Shown here piece by piece: positions 7,937-41,709 of a stretch of DNA of 41,709 bases (the first letter of the stretch is position 1; every line of letters starts with the position of its first letter). A program made the translations under genes and the position numbers. The notes under the pieces are model-generated. The model worked only from the letters and a program-made list of their open reading frames with translations, searched no databases and was not told the DNA's origin. Source of the stretch: a virus; the IMG/VR virus record IMGVR_UViG_3300020125_000179, positions 1-41,709 of that record; one strand, 5' to 3'.

Positions 7937-8309
7937 CGAACCCACCGCTCCACACTGCATCGGGTGTGGAGCGGTGGGTCATCCCTCTCCGAGCGGATGG
8001 ATCACCGCCCACGAGTCCGACTGCCCGTGGACGATGCCGATGCCACCGAGTGAGTACGCCGACCTCGACTTCGGCAACGACGTCATCTGGCAACAGACCC
8101 TCGACGACGGTCGGTTCACGATGCGCGTGACACGCGTCGACGAGAGCATCGGCCTGCTCCAGGTGTTCGTCACCGAGGGGGAACGCAAGCTGCACGAGGA
8201 GCAAGTGCCGCTGGCATTCGGAGCCGTGTTCGGCCCTGACATGGACGACGTGGCCGAGTGGCAAGAGATCACCATCGCTCAGGTCGATCGGTTCCTCCTC
8301 AAGGAGTAG
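7917..8309 (+). CDS. hypothetical protein with N-terminal Cys/His cluster, 130 aa
   Basis: A 130-residue protein. The N-terminal HCIGCGAVGHPS segment followed by H-x3-C suggests a zinc finger; the rest is probably a beta-rich domain (RFTMRVTRVDESIGLLQVFVT). AGGAAGG precedes the ATG. The codons for residues 8-21 lie in a perfect 16-bp inverted repeat (7940-7979). The last codons contain the 21-base repeat shared with 41668-41688. It ends ahead of the strongest intrinsic terminator in the window. Confidence 0.7.
   Translation: MPTAPSDEPTAPHCIGCGAVGHPSPSGWITAHESDCPWTMPMPPSEYADLDFGNDVIWQQTLDDGRFTMRVTRVDESIGLLQVFVTEGERKLHEEQVPLAFGAVFGPDMDDVAEWQEITIAQVDRFLLKE
7940..7979 (+). repeat. perfect 16-bp inverted repeat inside a gene start
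   Basis: ACCCACCGCTCCACAC (7940-7955) and its exact complement (7964-7979) with an 8-base loop. It begins 4 bases after the stop of the membrane coiled-coil gene but lies within the coding part of the gene at 7917. It could act as a terminator or a translational brake. Confidence 0.6.
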
Positions 8310-8407: not shown

Positions 8408-9496
8408 ATGACCACCACCTACCAAGTGGGCGACGCCCTCGCCCTGTACCCCACCCTCGCACCAGGGTCGATCGACCTGGTGATGACGTCCCCGCCGTTC
8501 CTCAACCTGCGTCACTACCTCGGGCCGATGGACCCACTCAAGGAGGCCGAGGTCGGGCGGGGATCGCCCGCCGCGTTCATCGACACCCTGCTGGAGCACG
8601 TCGCCGCGTGGCGCACCGTGCTGGCCGAGCACGGCACCATCGTCATCGAACTCGGAGACACCTACTCCGGCTCCGGTGGAGCGGGCGGGGACTACAACAC
8701 CGGCTTCCGCCGCGGCCCGCGCTACGACGGCAGCGCACGTACGCCCGAGGGCTGGCCCCTGCGTAAGTCGAAGGCGATGATCCCCGAGTTGCTCGGCGTG
8801 GCCCTGGCCTACGGCCTCAACCCGCTCACCGGAGAGGACTCGCCCGCCGGGTGCTGGCGTATCCGCAACGTCGTCACGTGGTGCCGCTCGAACCCACCGG
8901 TCGGAGCGACGAGCGACAAGTTCCGCACCGCGACGTCGTCGATGATCATGGCCTGCACCTCACCCAAGAGGTACTTCGACATGGAGCCGGTGCGCACCAC
9001 CGCCCCGCCGCTCGACTACTGGGCGATCAACGTCAAGCGCACCAAGCTGCACCACTTCGCCTCGTATCCGGGCAAGGTGTGTCGTGTCCCGATCCTGTCG
9101 ATGTCCCCGATGAAGGTGTGTCGCACGTGCGGACAGCCCTCACGCAGAGTGATGAAGACGCAGTGCTACCGGGACGGCGAACCGATCTCCGGCGTGCGTC
9201 ATGGCACGGTGCGCGGCCTCGCTGCCGACACCGGCATCAGCCACAACCGATTCACCACGACCCGGATCACCGAGGGTTGGACAGACTGCGGGCATGACGA
9301 CTGGCGCGCCGGGTGCGTCCTCGACCCCTTCGCCGGGACCGGCACGACCCTCGCCGTGGCCGACCTGCTGGGCCGCGACGCGGTCGGCTTCGACATCGAC
9401 AGCCGGGGCCCTGCGCTGTATGCGCGCCGATGGCCGGAGGTCTGTGTCGAGTTGTTCGGCCAGCCATGGATGCAGCCCGAACTCATCAGTGCTTGA
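8408..9496 (+). CDS. DNA methyltransferase (N4/N6 type, DNA_methylase/N6_N4_Mtase family)
   Basis: A 362-residue amino-methyltransferase. The catalytic motif IV is TSPPF (residues 27-31) and the AdoMet-binding motif I, DPFAGTGTT, starts at Asp306. IV before I is the beta-class order. A Cys-rich insert (Cys238 and Cys241 in CRTCG, then TDCGH just before motif I) is a probable zinc ribbon, as in many phage methylases that I recall. It should methylate phage DNA at a short site, most likely to evade host restriction; no restriction enzyme is present. The gene follows a strong terminator. A weak TACTGT hexamer at 8394-8399 is the only -10-like element seen, so transcription may start very near the ATG. 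Confidence 0.9.
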   Translation: MTTTYQVGDALALYPTLAPGSIDLVMTSPPFLNLRHYLGPMDPLKEAEVGRGSPAAFIDTLLEHVAAWRTVLAEHGTIVIELGDTYSGSGGAGGDYNTGFRRGPRYDGSARTPEGWPLRKSKAMIPELLGVALAYGLNPLTGEDSPAGCWRIRNVVTWCRSNPPVGATSDKFRTATSSMIMACTSPKRYFDMEPVRTTAPPLDYWAINVKRTKLHHFASYPGKVCRVPILSMSPMKVCRTCGQPSRRVMKTQCYRDGEPISGVRHGTVRGLAADTGISHNRFTTTRITEGWTDCGHDDWRAGCVLDPFAGTGTTLAVADLLGRDAVGFDIDSRGPALYARRWPEVCVELFGQPWMQPELISA

Positions 9497-38793: not shown

Positions 38794-39000
38794 ATGAACC
38801 ATAGCAAGCCGTCCGATCAGTGGACGTACCTGTCCGAGTGGAACGTGCTGCGACTGCACTTCCCCAACGGCAACGTCCGCTACGAGATCGACCTCGATCG
38901 CACCACCGAGATGGACTGGGTCGACCACCTGTCGACCAAGGGGTGGATGACCCCGGCCCTGATGGCCGACCTGCAGCGCAACCTCGACGAGCACCAGTGA
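38794..39000 (+). CDS. hypothetical protein, 68 aa
   Basis: A 68-residue, acidic protein (WTYLSEWNVLRLHFPNGNVR, ending in a helix). AAAGGAAG lies upstream of the ATG. Its stop overlaps the GTG start of the prim-pol/helicase gene, so it is probably a small partner made in step with it. No family recognised. Confidence 0.7.
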   Translation: MNHSKPSDQWTYLSEWNVLRLHFPNGNVRYEIDLDRTTEMDWVDHLSTKGWMTPALMADLQRNLDEHQ

Positions 39001-41252
39001 GCGCCGCCGAACAGCCCCTGCCGCCGCGCTATGACGCAGCGATCAGGTACGGGATGCGTGGCCTGCGCCTGCTCCCCGTGGAGTACCACGCCCGCACGGC
39101 GATCCTGCCCCGCTGGCAGCAGAACGCGGCCAACGACGTCGCCTTCATCGACAAGCACTGGGCCTCCGGGCGCAACAACATCGGCCTGTGCTGTGGCCCG
39201 CAGCCCAACGGGTGGAACATCCTCGTGGTCGACGTCGACGATCCAGCCGCCTGGCAGGCCCTCGAAGCCGAATACGGCCCAGTCGACCGCACCTCGGTGT
39301 GCTTCCACCGCACGCCGACGGGCGGGACCCACCTGTTCTTCAACGTCCCCGAGGGCATGGCCATCACCCGCACCAACGTCCCGGTCAAGGGCATCGACCT
39401 GCGCGGTGGGCAGGCGGACAACCTCGGCTGCGGCTACGTCGTGCTGACCGAGTCCGAGGCGCCGGACAAGCGAACGGGCGAGCTCAAGGCGTACTACGCC
39501 AAGGAGGGGCGGGGACTGCTCGATCGCGATCCCGGTCCGCCGCCTGGATGGCTGCTCGACTTCATCAAGGCCGACCTGGCGCCGAAGCCGCAGGTCCAGG
39601 AGACGATCGACCGGTACATCACCGGGGGAGACGACGGTACGACACCGGGGGGCTGGGTCCGTGAGCACCTCCGCTGGGAGGAGTACCTGCTCAAGCACGG
39701 CTGGACGCGCGACGGCACCTACTGGGTGCGTCCCGGCAAGACAGCACGCGAGGGCCACGGCGCCCAGCTGCACGACGACGGCCGGTTCGCCTTCTGGACG
39801 ACCACCGACTTGCCGCCGGGGATGACGAAGCTGGGCAGTCGCCAGACCGACGGGGGCTACTCGATCAGCCTGTACGACTTCATCGCCAGCTACGAGTTCG
39901 GCGGGGACCGCAGCGAGTTGGGCCGGTACATCCGCAACGAGTTCATGCCGCAGGCCCCCGGGGCGGGCTGGGTCCAGGAGCCTGCGGTGCTCGACGATAC
40001 GCCGACGCTCGGGCTGAACCTGCCGCCGGAGTTCTGGACGGCGCGCCCGTGGTTGACCCACCTGCGGGACTCCGCCTGGGCCGTCGGCAGCACGCCGGAC
40101 GCCCAGCTGATCGTGACCCTGGCGCGCTACGCGACGATGATCCCGCCGGGCCTGCACATCCCGGCGATCGTGCGGGCCAAGGGCTCGTTCGACCTGATGA
40201 CCGTCGTCATCGCCGCGTCGGGGCAGGGCAAGTCGTCGCTGATGCTGCGCGCCGAGGAGCTCCTGCCCAGCCAGCGCACCGACCTGCGCTTCGGGCTGGG
40301 ACTGTCGTCGGGTGAGGGCATCGTCGAGATGTACTACGGGACGCGTGACACCCTCGACTCGGCGGGGAAGGCGTCCAAGGAGCGCACCCTGGTCTACGAC
40401 GGAGCCAACTTCGTCGTCGACGAGGGCGCCTTGCTGTCGTCGTTGGCCGGGCGCAGCGGGTTCACCGGGATCGAGCGCCTGCTGACCGCGTGGAGTGGTG
40501 GGACCCTGAGCACGGCGAACGCCACCCAGGACCGCTTCCGCCACGTACCCGCCGGGAAGTACCGGTTCACCCTGACGATGGCGATCCAGACCGAGCTCTC
40601 CGCCGAACTGTGGGCGGGGACCCGTACGGCGCAGGGGTTCACCGGGCGCCTGCTGATGATGATGTCGCGCGGAGGGGACGTCCCCCCGCCGGGTCAGCGT
40701 CCGCCGGACCCCGGCCCGCTCGACCTGCCGACGCCGCCGTCGATGACCCTCGCGCTGAGTTATCCACAGGCTGTGTGGGACGAGGTGCAGTGGAACGACT
40801 TCGCCAAGCAGGACCCCGCCTACGTCGAGGACGCGCTCGTCGCGCACCAGGATCTGCAGCGCCTCAAGCTGGCGGGGATCTTGGCGTGTGCGGACGGGAG
40901 GGTCGACGTCGACCTCACGGACTGGGAGCTCGCCTCACAGATCGTGACGGTCTCGTCGAACGTGCGTACGTGGCTCCAGCAGCAGACGGCTGCGAAGCGC
41001 GCTCAGCAGGAGGCTCAGGCAGCGGAGTGGAAGGGCAGAGCGCAGGCCGCTGTCGCAAACGCGGAGCACGATGCACACGTCGCCAGGGTGGCCCGGCGGA
41101 TCCTCGGGTTCGTCACCAAGGAGCCGATCCTGATCAGCGTGCTGCGGAAGAAGACGGCCGAGCGCGACCGCATCCCGTACTTCAAGGACGCCCTCGCCAG
41201 CCTCGTCGAAGCGGGGCTGATCCAGACCGACGGCAAGGCGGCCTGGCTGTAG
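38997..41252 (+). CDS. prim-pol/helicase replication protein
   Basis: A 751-residue protein. The N-terminal domain (about 10-220) is a bifunctional primase-polymerase (PF09250-like): VVDVD with Asp79 and Asp81, TPTGGTH with His112 and GIDLRG with Asp134, the three archaeo-eukaryotic primase motifs. The middle holds an ATPase domain with Walker A GQGKSS (409-414) and a Walker B-like VVDEG near 470. A C-terminal winged-helix-like segment (ISVLRKKTAERDRIPYFKDA) closes it. It should prime and unwind DNA at the origin. It is the only recognisable replicative polymerase-fold protein in the window. GTG start in a GTGA overlap. Confidence 0.88.
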   Translation: MSAAEQPLPPRYDAAIRYGMRGLRLLPVEYHARTAILPRWQQNAANDVAFIDKHWASGRNNIGLCCGPQPNGWNILVVDVDDPAAWQALEAEYGPVDRTSVCFHRTPTGGTHLFFNVPEGMAITRTNVPVKGIDLRGGQADNLGCGYVVLTESEAPDKRTGELKAYYAKEGRGLLDRDPGPPPGWLLDFIKADLAPKPQVQETIDRYITGGDDGTTPGGWVREHLRWEEYLLKHGWTRDGTYWVRPGKTAREGHGAQLHDDGRFAFWTTTDLPPGMTKLGSRQTDGGYSISLYDFIASYEFGGDRSELGRYIRNEFMPQAPGAGWVQEPAVLDDTPTLGLNLPPEFWTARPWLTHLRDSAWAVGSTPDAQLIVTLARYATMIPPGLHIPAIVRAKGSFDLMTVVIAASGQGKSSLMLRAEELLPSQRTDLRFGLGLSSGEGIVEMYYGTRDTLDSAGKASKERTLVYDGANFVVDEGALLSSLAGRSGFTGIERLLTAWSGGTLSTANATQDRFRHVPAGKYRFTLTMAIQTELSAELWAGTRTAQGFTGRLLMMMSRGGDVPPPGQRPPDPGPLDLPTPPSMTLALSYPQAVWDEVQWNDFAKQDPAYVEDALVAHQDLQRLKLAGILACADGRVDVDLTDWELASQIVTVSSNVRTWLQQQTAAKRAQQEAQAAEWKGRAQAAVANAEHDAHVARVARRILGFVTKEPILISVLRKKTAERDRIPYFKDALASLVEAGLIQTDGKAAWL

Positions 41253-41257
41253 CGAGG

Positions 41258-41288
41258 AGGGGTACAGGAGTACATGTACTCCACCCCT
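41258..41288 (+). repeat. inverted repeat with 16-bp palindrome
   Basis: GGAGTACATGTACTCC (41267-41282) is a perfect palindrome. AGGGGT (41258-41263) and ACCCCT (41283-41288) pair outside it with a 3-base bulge. It may serve as operator, origin element or terminator for the prim-pol gene. Confidence 0.65.
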
Positions 41289-41325
41289 TCTGTAGCTCAT
41301 TTCAGCCTGTATGCGTTAAGTCCCT

Positions 41326-41370
41326 GGTCAGATGATGGTTATCAGGTGCGATCTGAATCGAGATCTGACC
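41326..41370 (+). repeat. 8-bp inverted repeat with extra half-site
   Basis: GGTCAGAT (41326-41333) and ATCTGACC (41363-41370), 29 bases apart, with a further ATCTGA at 41351-41356. The spacing suggests protein-binding half-sites rather than an RNA hairpin. Confidence 0.45.
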
Positions 41371-41373
41371 CCG

Positions 41374-41403
41374 GAGGGGTACATGTACTCGTTTGTACCC
41401 CTC
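41374..41403 (+). repeat. 10-bp inverted repeat, related to 41258-41288
   Basis: GAGGGGTACA (41374-41383) pairs with TGTACCCCTC (41394-41403) around a 10-base loop. AGGGGTACATGTACTC (41375-41390) equals the element at 41258 with 8 bases removed. Confidence 0.65.
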
Positions 41404-41428
41404 GAAACCCGAACAGATGTACGATCTC

Positions 41429-41452
41429 AGCCCCAGGGTCGCACCTGGGGCT
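41429..41452 (+). repeat. 9-bp hairpin
   Basis: AGCCCCAGG (41429-41437) pairs with CCTGGGGCT (41444-41452), loop GTCGCA, flanked on both sides by CGATCTC. Confidence 0.55.
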
Positions 41453-41552
41453 CGATCTCGCCTCTGAAACGGCGTTCGGGAACGGGTGTTCGATCCTTTC
41501 CCAGGACCTCTCACAGAAATGGCGGGCTGTCCGACTCCCCATTACCAGTCCT

Positions 41553-41575
41553 GCATGGGGGCGGAGCCCCCATGC
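41553..41575 (+). terminator. 10-bp GC-rich hairpin
   Basis: GCATGGGGGC (41553-41562) pairs with GCCCCCATGC (41566-41575) with loop GGA. Very stable; no T-run. It could insulate the promoter downstream from upstream transcription. Confidence 0.5.
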
Positions 41576-41603
41576 CCCCAGGGGGTCGGTGGGGGTGTGG
41601 GGG

Positions 41604-41612
41604 TGCTAGAAT
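41604..41612 (+). promoter_or_regulatory. extended -10 promoter candidate
   Basis: TGC immediately before TAGAAT (41607-41612) forms an extended -10 element; no -35 box is visible in the G-rich upstream sequence. Transcription would start near 41619 and read toward the start codon at 41689 and, if the genome is circular, into the accessory arm. Confidence 0.45.
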
Positions 41613-41667
41613 GATGGGGTGAGTCGGGGTCCCCCCACCCACCGGAACCGAGCACCGTGCCCGGACC

Positions 41668-41688
41668 GTTCCTCCTCAAGGAGTAGCC
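41668..41688 (+). repeat. 21-base repeat, copy 2, with ribosome-binding site
   Basis: Identical to 8291-8311. Here AAGGAG (41678-41683) lies 5 bases before the ATG at 41689, and the CTCC of the same 12-mer could pair with GGAG and hide it. Confidence 0.7.
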
Positions 41689-41709
41689 ATGACCACCACC
41701 ACCACCACC
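41689..41709 (+). CDS. start of a Thr-rich reading frame cut by the window end (possible leader peptide)
   Basis: ATG followed by six ACC codons to the window edge, with AAGGAG at good spacing. If base 41709 is followed by base 1, the frame continues and stops at 25-27, giving the 15-residue peptide MTTTTTTAHQQHEHR, whose TGA overlaps the ATG of the gene at 24 (ATGA). That would be a translational leader for the accessory arm. The ACC run is also where an assembler could break or miscount, so the length is uncertain. Confidence 0.45.

Follow-up and report, generated by a model that had tools for sequence, protein, structure and literature searches.

The segment at positions 41259–41401, directly 3′ of a primase/helicase gene, is very probably the replication origin of a podovirus-like phage; the initiator would bind it via its winged helix and load two opposed helicase rings. 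The analyzed DNA (the window), a 41,709-base contig that IMG/VR lists as viral, carries podovirus-like portal, internal virion protein, terminase, and capsid genes. The origin reading is based on the anatomy, conservation, and position of the element, the domain make-up of the initiator, and the covariation between half-sites and winged helix, from which we infer binding, loading, melting, and priming. The locus contains the following features:

38997–41252, strand +: initiator gene, 751 aa, encoding an N-terminal prim-pol domain, an AAA+ MCM-like helicase, and a C-terminal winged helix
41040–41249, strand +: C-terminal winged helix, the proposed half-site reader according to model, conservation, and covariation
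41259–41282, no strand assigned: composite site 1, F-F-R (GGGGTACA GGAGTACA TGTACTCC)
41283–41375, no strand assigned: spacer between sites 1 and 2, 93 bp, AT-richer, the presumed unwinding region
41318–41327, strand +: conserved spacer motif AAGTCCCTGG (family AAGTCCTG), at the same place in the relatives G014, G022, L096, and L097
41338–41347, strand +: GGTTATCAGG in the spacer, where relatives show the DnaA box GGTTATCCACAGG
41376–41401, no strand assigned: composite site 2, F-R-R (GGGGTACA TGTACTCG tt TGTACCCC)
41409–41424, no strand assigned: LexA-like box 1 CCGAACAGATGTACGA, adjoining site 2, the sole strict YCGAACN4GNNCGA in the window
41429–41452, strand +: 9-bp hairpin AGCCCCAGG...CCTGGGGCT, with no U-run
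41478–41493, no strand assigned: LexA-like box 2 GGGAACGGGTGTTCGA, the sole perfect GAACN4GTTC in the window
41510–41546, strand +: conserved block CTCACAGAAA...CCGACTCCCCATTACC, preceding the promoter and aligned in most relatives
41553–41575, strand +: 10-bp GC hairpin GCATGGGGGC/GCCCCCATGC upstream of the promoter
41604–41612, strand +: extended -10 promoter TGCTAGAAT of the next operon; several relatives have a comparable -10 element in this position
41672–41683, no strand assigned: hairpin word CTCCTCAAGGAG, within the following gene's leader
41689–41709, strand +: beginning of the following gene (MTTTTTT...), truncated where the window stops

Anatomy of the element and its initiator

The initiator matches the Pfam Prim-Pol family (7e-19), and its nearest PDB relative by profile is ORF904 of the plasmid pRN1. 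Its AlphaFold model (mean pLDDT 75) matches the ORF904 primase and MCM helicases; in fold comparison, the primase part is nearest to ORF904 and the central part to MCM helicases. The last 122 aa (pLDDT 88) form a long helix followed by a winged helix, which matches the Rpa2 winged helix (TMt 0.80, E 0.4), all structural matches having E above 0.1. This domain is common to the initiators of the 11 compared replicons, and primase and helicase form a single chain in the window and two chains in some relatives.

Only 6 bp separate the stop codon of this gene, which ends at 41252, from site 1, confirming the replication enzyme that a preliminary description of the region had placed next to it. Both sites are built from an 8-letter half-site (GGGGTACA/GGAGTACA) in two orientations (F and R), and site 2 is an inverted copy of site 1. 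The word GGGGTACA occurs, as had been noted, twice directly (41259 and 41376) and once inverted (41394, strand -); the window has one further copy, at 8445. A strict search for F-F-R followed by F-R-R (8-mers, at most one mismatch, short gaps, in that order) gave a single match in the window and none in 150 dinucleotide-shuffled windows. Other repeats of the preliminary description were also recovered, namely the 16-bp palindrome GGAGTACATGTACTCC (41267–41282) and the 10-bp inverted repeat GAGGGGTACA/TGTACCCCTC (41374–41383/41394–41403, 10 nt apart). Its wide 8-bp inverted repeat is probably the 9-bp pair CAGGTGCGA/TCGCACCTG at 41343/41439, but this pair shows no conservation in relatives. Several features are without conservation and not every listed repeat appears to matter. 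The region was rightly called gene-free: the open reading frame 41274–41609 has no PHROG match and the aligned relatives share motifs and no common gene across it, thus no conserved coding gene is present. The cumulative GC-skew curve suggested as a check has a weak minimum near the site (range p = 0.08), but its extremes are not conserved and it is uninformative.

The AT content of the spacer is ~49% against 34% genome-wide, a value reached by 0.5% of 92-bp windows, and spacer AT content exceeds that of the surrounding locus in 11 of 12 replicons. The motif AAGTCCCTGG, with AAGTCCTG-like words in the spacers of several podovirus-family members, is a possible priming or melting element. The DnaA box TTATCCACA occurs in the spacer twice in G014 and G022 and once in L097. 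In the region of the window no DnaA box was found at up to one mismatch, so that the intact boxes of a DnaA-dependent origin are missing; GGTTATCAGG is possibly a remnant of GGTTATCCACAGG.

In the proposed mechanism, the C-terminal winged helix of the initiator would bind the element, one winged helix per 8-bp half-site. The F-F-R site would nucleate one helicase ring and the mirrored F-R-R site a second one facing the opposite way, and, by analogy with SaPI Rep, SCCmec Cch2, and pRN1, six winged helices would seat the two opposed rings around the spacer. The AT-richer spacer, in which a AAGTCCTG-type motif is conserved and some relatives add DnaA boxes, would then melt, the prim-pol domain would prime, and replication would proceed bidirectionally. 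Just beyond the element, LexA-like boxes flank the next operon's promoter.

GC-rich inverted repeats right after a stop codon could also be read as transcription terminators of the primase operon. This explanation is barely credible for repeats that are without U-runs and form two mirrored copies, 116–128 bp apart start to start, of three half-sites each; moreover, the separate hairpin at 41429–41452 is a better terminator candidate.

Occurrence of the layout in other replicons

Nucleotide searches of phage records found no relatives of the window, and a genome-contig search found no relative of the initiator. Via the capsid protein we gathered 48 contigs of one uncultured podovirus family, known from metagenomes alone, eight of them with the initiator, and further relatives were added by initiator searches. 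The F-F-R...F-R-R order, which is more precise than what the preliminary description had recorded, follows the homologous gene in eight relatives (G014, G022, G034, G044, L095, L096, L097, and L098), the element of G044 starting just ahead of the initiator stop codon. The start-to-start distance of the two sites is 116–117, 122, or 127–128 bp in six relatives and 109 bp in G044. Partial elements, interrupted by homopolymers or the contig end, were found in G001 and G045. The half-site words of the family (GGGGAAG, GGGGAAC, GTAGGACC, GGGGGTC, and GGGGGACA) differ across members and agree inside each, thus the layout is conserved while the word changes in all copies of a replicon together. In L076 (G012), a prim-pol with another ATPase part is followed by a TTGTCCACG/TTGTCCGCG DnaA-like array in place of the paired half-sites. 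L109 and L111, which are closer to pRN1, have widely spaced half-sites CAGAACG/CGTTCTG and a 17-bp stem with a ~60-nt loop.

Beyond the family, the strict element lies 16–17 bp past the stop codon of the homologous gene in the lemur-saliva phage Dulem virus 32 (word ACGTGGCCA), 13–19 bp past it in the Mycobacterium abscessus prophages GD12-2 (TGTCGGC), GD17-1 (GTGTCAGC), and GD05-1 (GTGGAGGC), and 37–39 bp past the gene in Nonomuraea plasmid III (ATGTGGAC). The Gordonia phages Tarzan, TinyDot, Reyja, and Santhid carry a close form, FF...FRR, after the homologous gene. The words are wholly different between replicons (for example, GGGGTACA, GGGGAAC, ACGTGGCCA, TGTCGGC, GTGTCAGC, and CCTGGAAA) and match within each. 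Away from these genes, strict scans found no match, either in ~890 kb of loci or in 186 kb of phage sequence read on both strands. The layout is missing in the cluster O phage Ryadel, a Tsukamurella plasmid, pGEOTH02, and a Streptomyces plasmid. A 6-mer rule FF...RR matches pRN1, TinyDot, Dulem, Nonomuraea, and a Pediococcus plasmid; it also gives six matches elsewhere in one Streptomyces locus and is therefore weaker evidence. A looser windowed repeat score failed to tell origins apart from GC-rich coding sequence and was dropped.

Small hypothetical genes are annotated over the element at L115 4069–4320, L116 4063–4182, L107 3751–4485, and L139 6227–6499; in the prophages, Dulem virus 32, and the Gordonia phages concerned, they are probably false gene calls or genes extended in error.

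The near-complete contigs (the window, G001, G012, G014, G034, and G045) end near the predicted origin, either at physical ends or at assembly breaks in G/C runs. A packaging or terminal site, with repeats serving the terminase or end formation, would account for all six near-complete family contigs ending within ~1.1 kb past the primase gene and for the ~100-bp overlap of the G012 contig ends. It is nevertheless extremely unlikely, given that the break points differ, that G022, G044, and L095–L097 run through the region, that the terminase gene is far off, and that a plasmid has the same element. The candidate origin of the preliminary description gains support from the distribution of the element: phages with no other relationship, and a plasmid, have it after homologous primase/helicase genes, which fits an origin that goes with this enzyme better than a phage-specific operator.

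Half-site covariation and the downstream promoter region

Half-site distances were compared with winged-helix distances by Mantel tests, with half-site registers assigned by hand and the word ending at the dyad. A first run on 10 taxa was non-significant (p = 0.09). In the later run, for which the set had been enlarged with more distant replicons and whose p values are nominal, the two distances correlate (n = 19 replicons, r = 0.43, p = 0.0001), also with helicase distance held constant (r = 0.50), whereas half-site and helicase distances give r = 0.13 (p = 0.08). The covariation persists after near-identical members are removed (p = 0.004); restricted to the podovirus family, it is marginal (p = 0.07, or p = 0.02 once helicase distance is controlled for). 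Allowing the registers to shift produces a correlation with helicase distance as well and weakens the contrast between winged helix and helicase. Tarzan, with SRDR and CGTGGACA, and Reyja, with SKDR and CCTGGAAA, form a natural pair. These comparisons suggest that every replicon has a half-site word of its own, coevolving with the winged helix of the initiator.

The covariation bears on two further explanations. The two sites might be the arms of one large stem-loop origin working by structure, as proposed for pRN1, which requires its 100-nt stem-loop (PMC4234260). The arms do fold into a long stem (single-stranded fold of 41253–41405, z = -4.57), with a loop of ~93 nt where ~60–100 nt is expected of a pRN1-type structure, and L109 has its 17-bp stem around a loop. 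We consider a purely structural origin unlikely, however, since the F and R copies are unequal in number in some replicons (TinyDot and Tarzan), an imbalance for which a hairpin has no need, since half-sites recur every 8–10 bp inside one arm, and since the word covaries with the winged helix. The stem-loop and half-site readings are not exclusive, as the pRN1 arms themselves repeat a word.

Alternatively, the paired sites could be operators through which a phage repressor or activator controls transcription from the downstream promoter, with no origin present. Paired palindromes are typical operators, and the promoter and LexA-like boxes lie 10–210 bp downstream; still, in every replicon the sites abut the upstream stop codon and not the promoter, they accompany the primase/helicase gene in phages and a plasmid with little else in common, and their half-sites covary with the winged helix of that gene's product, which makes this explanation very unlikely.

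Next to the predicted origin lies a control region for the following operon. The LexA consensus used (tCGAAC-N4-GNNCGa) is that of Streptomyces venezuelae (PMC9380542), and at 41409–41424 this actinobacterial consensus is found near a promoter. LexA-like boxes with at most one mismatch number 21 in 11 family regions against 1.6 expected; judging from these sites, LexA may control the promoter of the next operon and couple it to host DNA damage. Both hairpins of the preliminary description, as well as its extended -10 element, were found again. The hairpins look like ordinary terminator or leader hairpins; the one at 41429–41452 is a possible terminator of the primase operon, and relatives have GC-rich inverted repeats at the place matching the one at 41553–41575. 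The conserved LexA-like boxes and extended -10 promoter within the downstream 200 bp also bear out the earlier term "master control region." In G044, the first gene starts with MSTTTTTTTT. Early intergenic regions carry repeated copies of the hairpin word CTCCTCAAGGAG (241–252 on strand -, 2209–2220, 8295–8306, and 41672–41683), and relatives have repeated palindromes of their own, CTGCACGTGCAG (G014), CGACACGTGTCG (G012), and GTGCAGCTGCAC (L096). The window also encodes, at 559–2193, an AAA-ATPase whose relatives in Gordonia and Pseudomonas phages are annotated as AAA/FtsH; several family members have it too.

Comparison with known origins

By analogy, the element appears to be a new form of SaPI Rep/pRN1-like origin, resembling both. 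As in origins of this kind, a primase-helicase initiator gene lies directly upstream, and short replicon-specific repeats surround an AT-rich stretch. In Rep of the staphylococcal pathogenicity islands (SaPI) and in SCCmec Cch2, the C-terminal domain reads short repeats just downstream of the gene, and the proteins may act as two hexamers (PMC7581432); the location just 3′ of the initiator helicase gene and the short repeats are shared with the window. Unlike SaPI, whose origins were compared by their description, the window has primase and helicase in one chain, an MCM-like fold match, and fixed F-F-R/F-R-R half-sites of 7–9 bp in actinobacterial phages and a plasmid.

The Sulfolobus plasmid pRN1 has its origin immediately 3′ of the ORF904 gene, with inverted arms and an AT-rich loop; its sequence diverges while the layout persists, it is described as being without iterons, and the initiator binding motifs are given as "not yet identified" (PMC4234260). 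ORF904, like the initiator studied here, combines a prim-pol, a helicase, and a winged helix in a single polypeptide, but its helicase belongs to SF3, and pRN1 has F-F...R-R only. Its arms read TGTCCA-tag-TGTCCA / TGGACA-cta-TGGACA, possibly a simpler version of the layout described here; in pDL10, no such repeats were seen. Phage P4 alpha differs from the window's protein in its Toprim-type primase. The geometry of the P4 origin (ori/crr) probably differs from that of the window as well. P4 alpha is cited in PMC4234260 as a multifunctional primase-helicase whose winged helix binds origin repeats, as proposed here. The prim-pol of phage NrS-1 belongs to the pRN1-like primase group (PMC5862659). 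Extrachromosomal mycobacterial prophages also have actinophage origins, but these are RepA-like or RNA-based, and no repeated motifs were found in them (PMC7157519). None of the open-licence papers covered maps an origin for prim-pol/helicase actinophages; an earlier description elsewhere is possible.

We tentatively suggest that prim-pol/helicase/winged-helix replicons of actinophages, bacterial plasmids, and archaeal pRN1 share one origin grammar. It would consist, again with somewhat less than even confidence, of mirrored private words of 6–9 bp, about one helical turn apart, flanking an AT-rich gap directly 3′ of the gene. If so, the "stem-loop" of pRN1 would be paired binding sites (TGTCCA four times), a concrete candidate answer to the question of its initiator motifs, and recognition-helix variants would spell a protein–DNA code, such as SRDR/TGGACA in Tarzan versus SKDR/TGGAAA in Reyja. 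The many natural recognition-helix/half-site pairs make such a recognition rule directly testable. The analysis provides base-precise predicted origins for a whole uncultured soil podovirus family, four Gordonia phages, three M. abscessus prophages, the lemur-saliva phage, and the Nonomuraea plasmid, several of these having a hypothetical gene annotated at the site; the modules could become new actinobacterial plasmid origins. In the Pediococcus plasmid (L138), a P4-family primase gene is followed by an AT-rich stretch with TGTTCCA words repeated in mirrored order around it, an arrangement that resembles pRN1.
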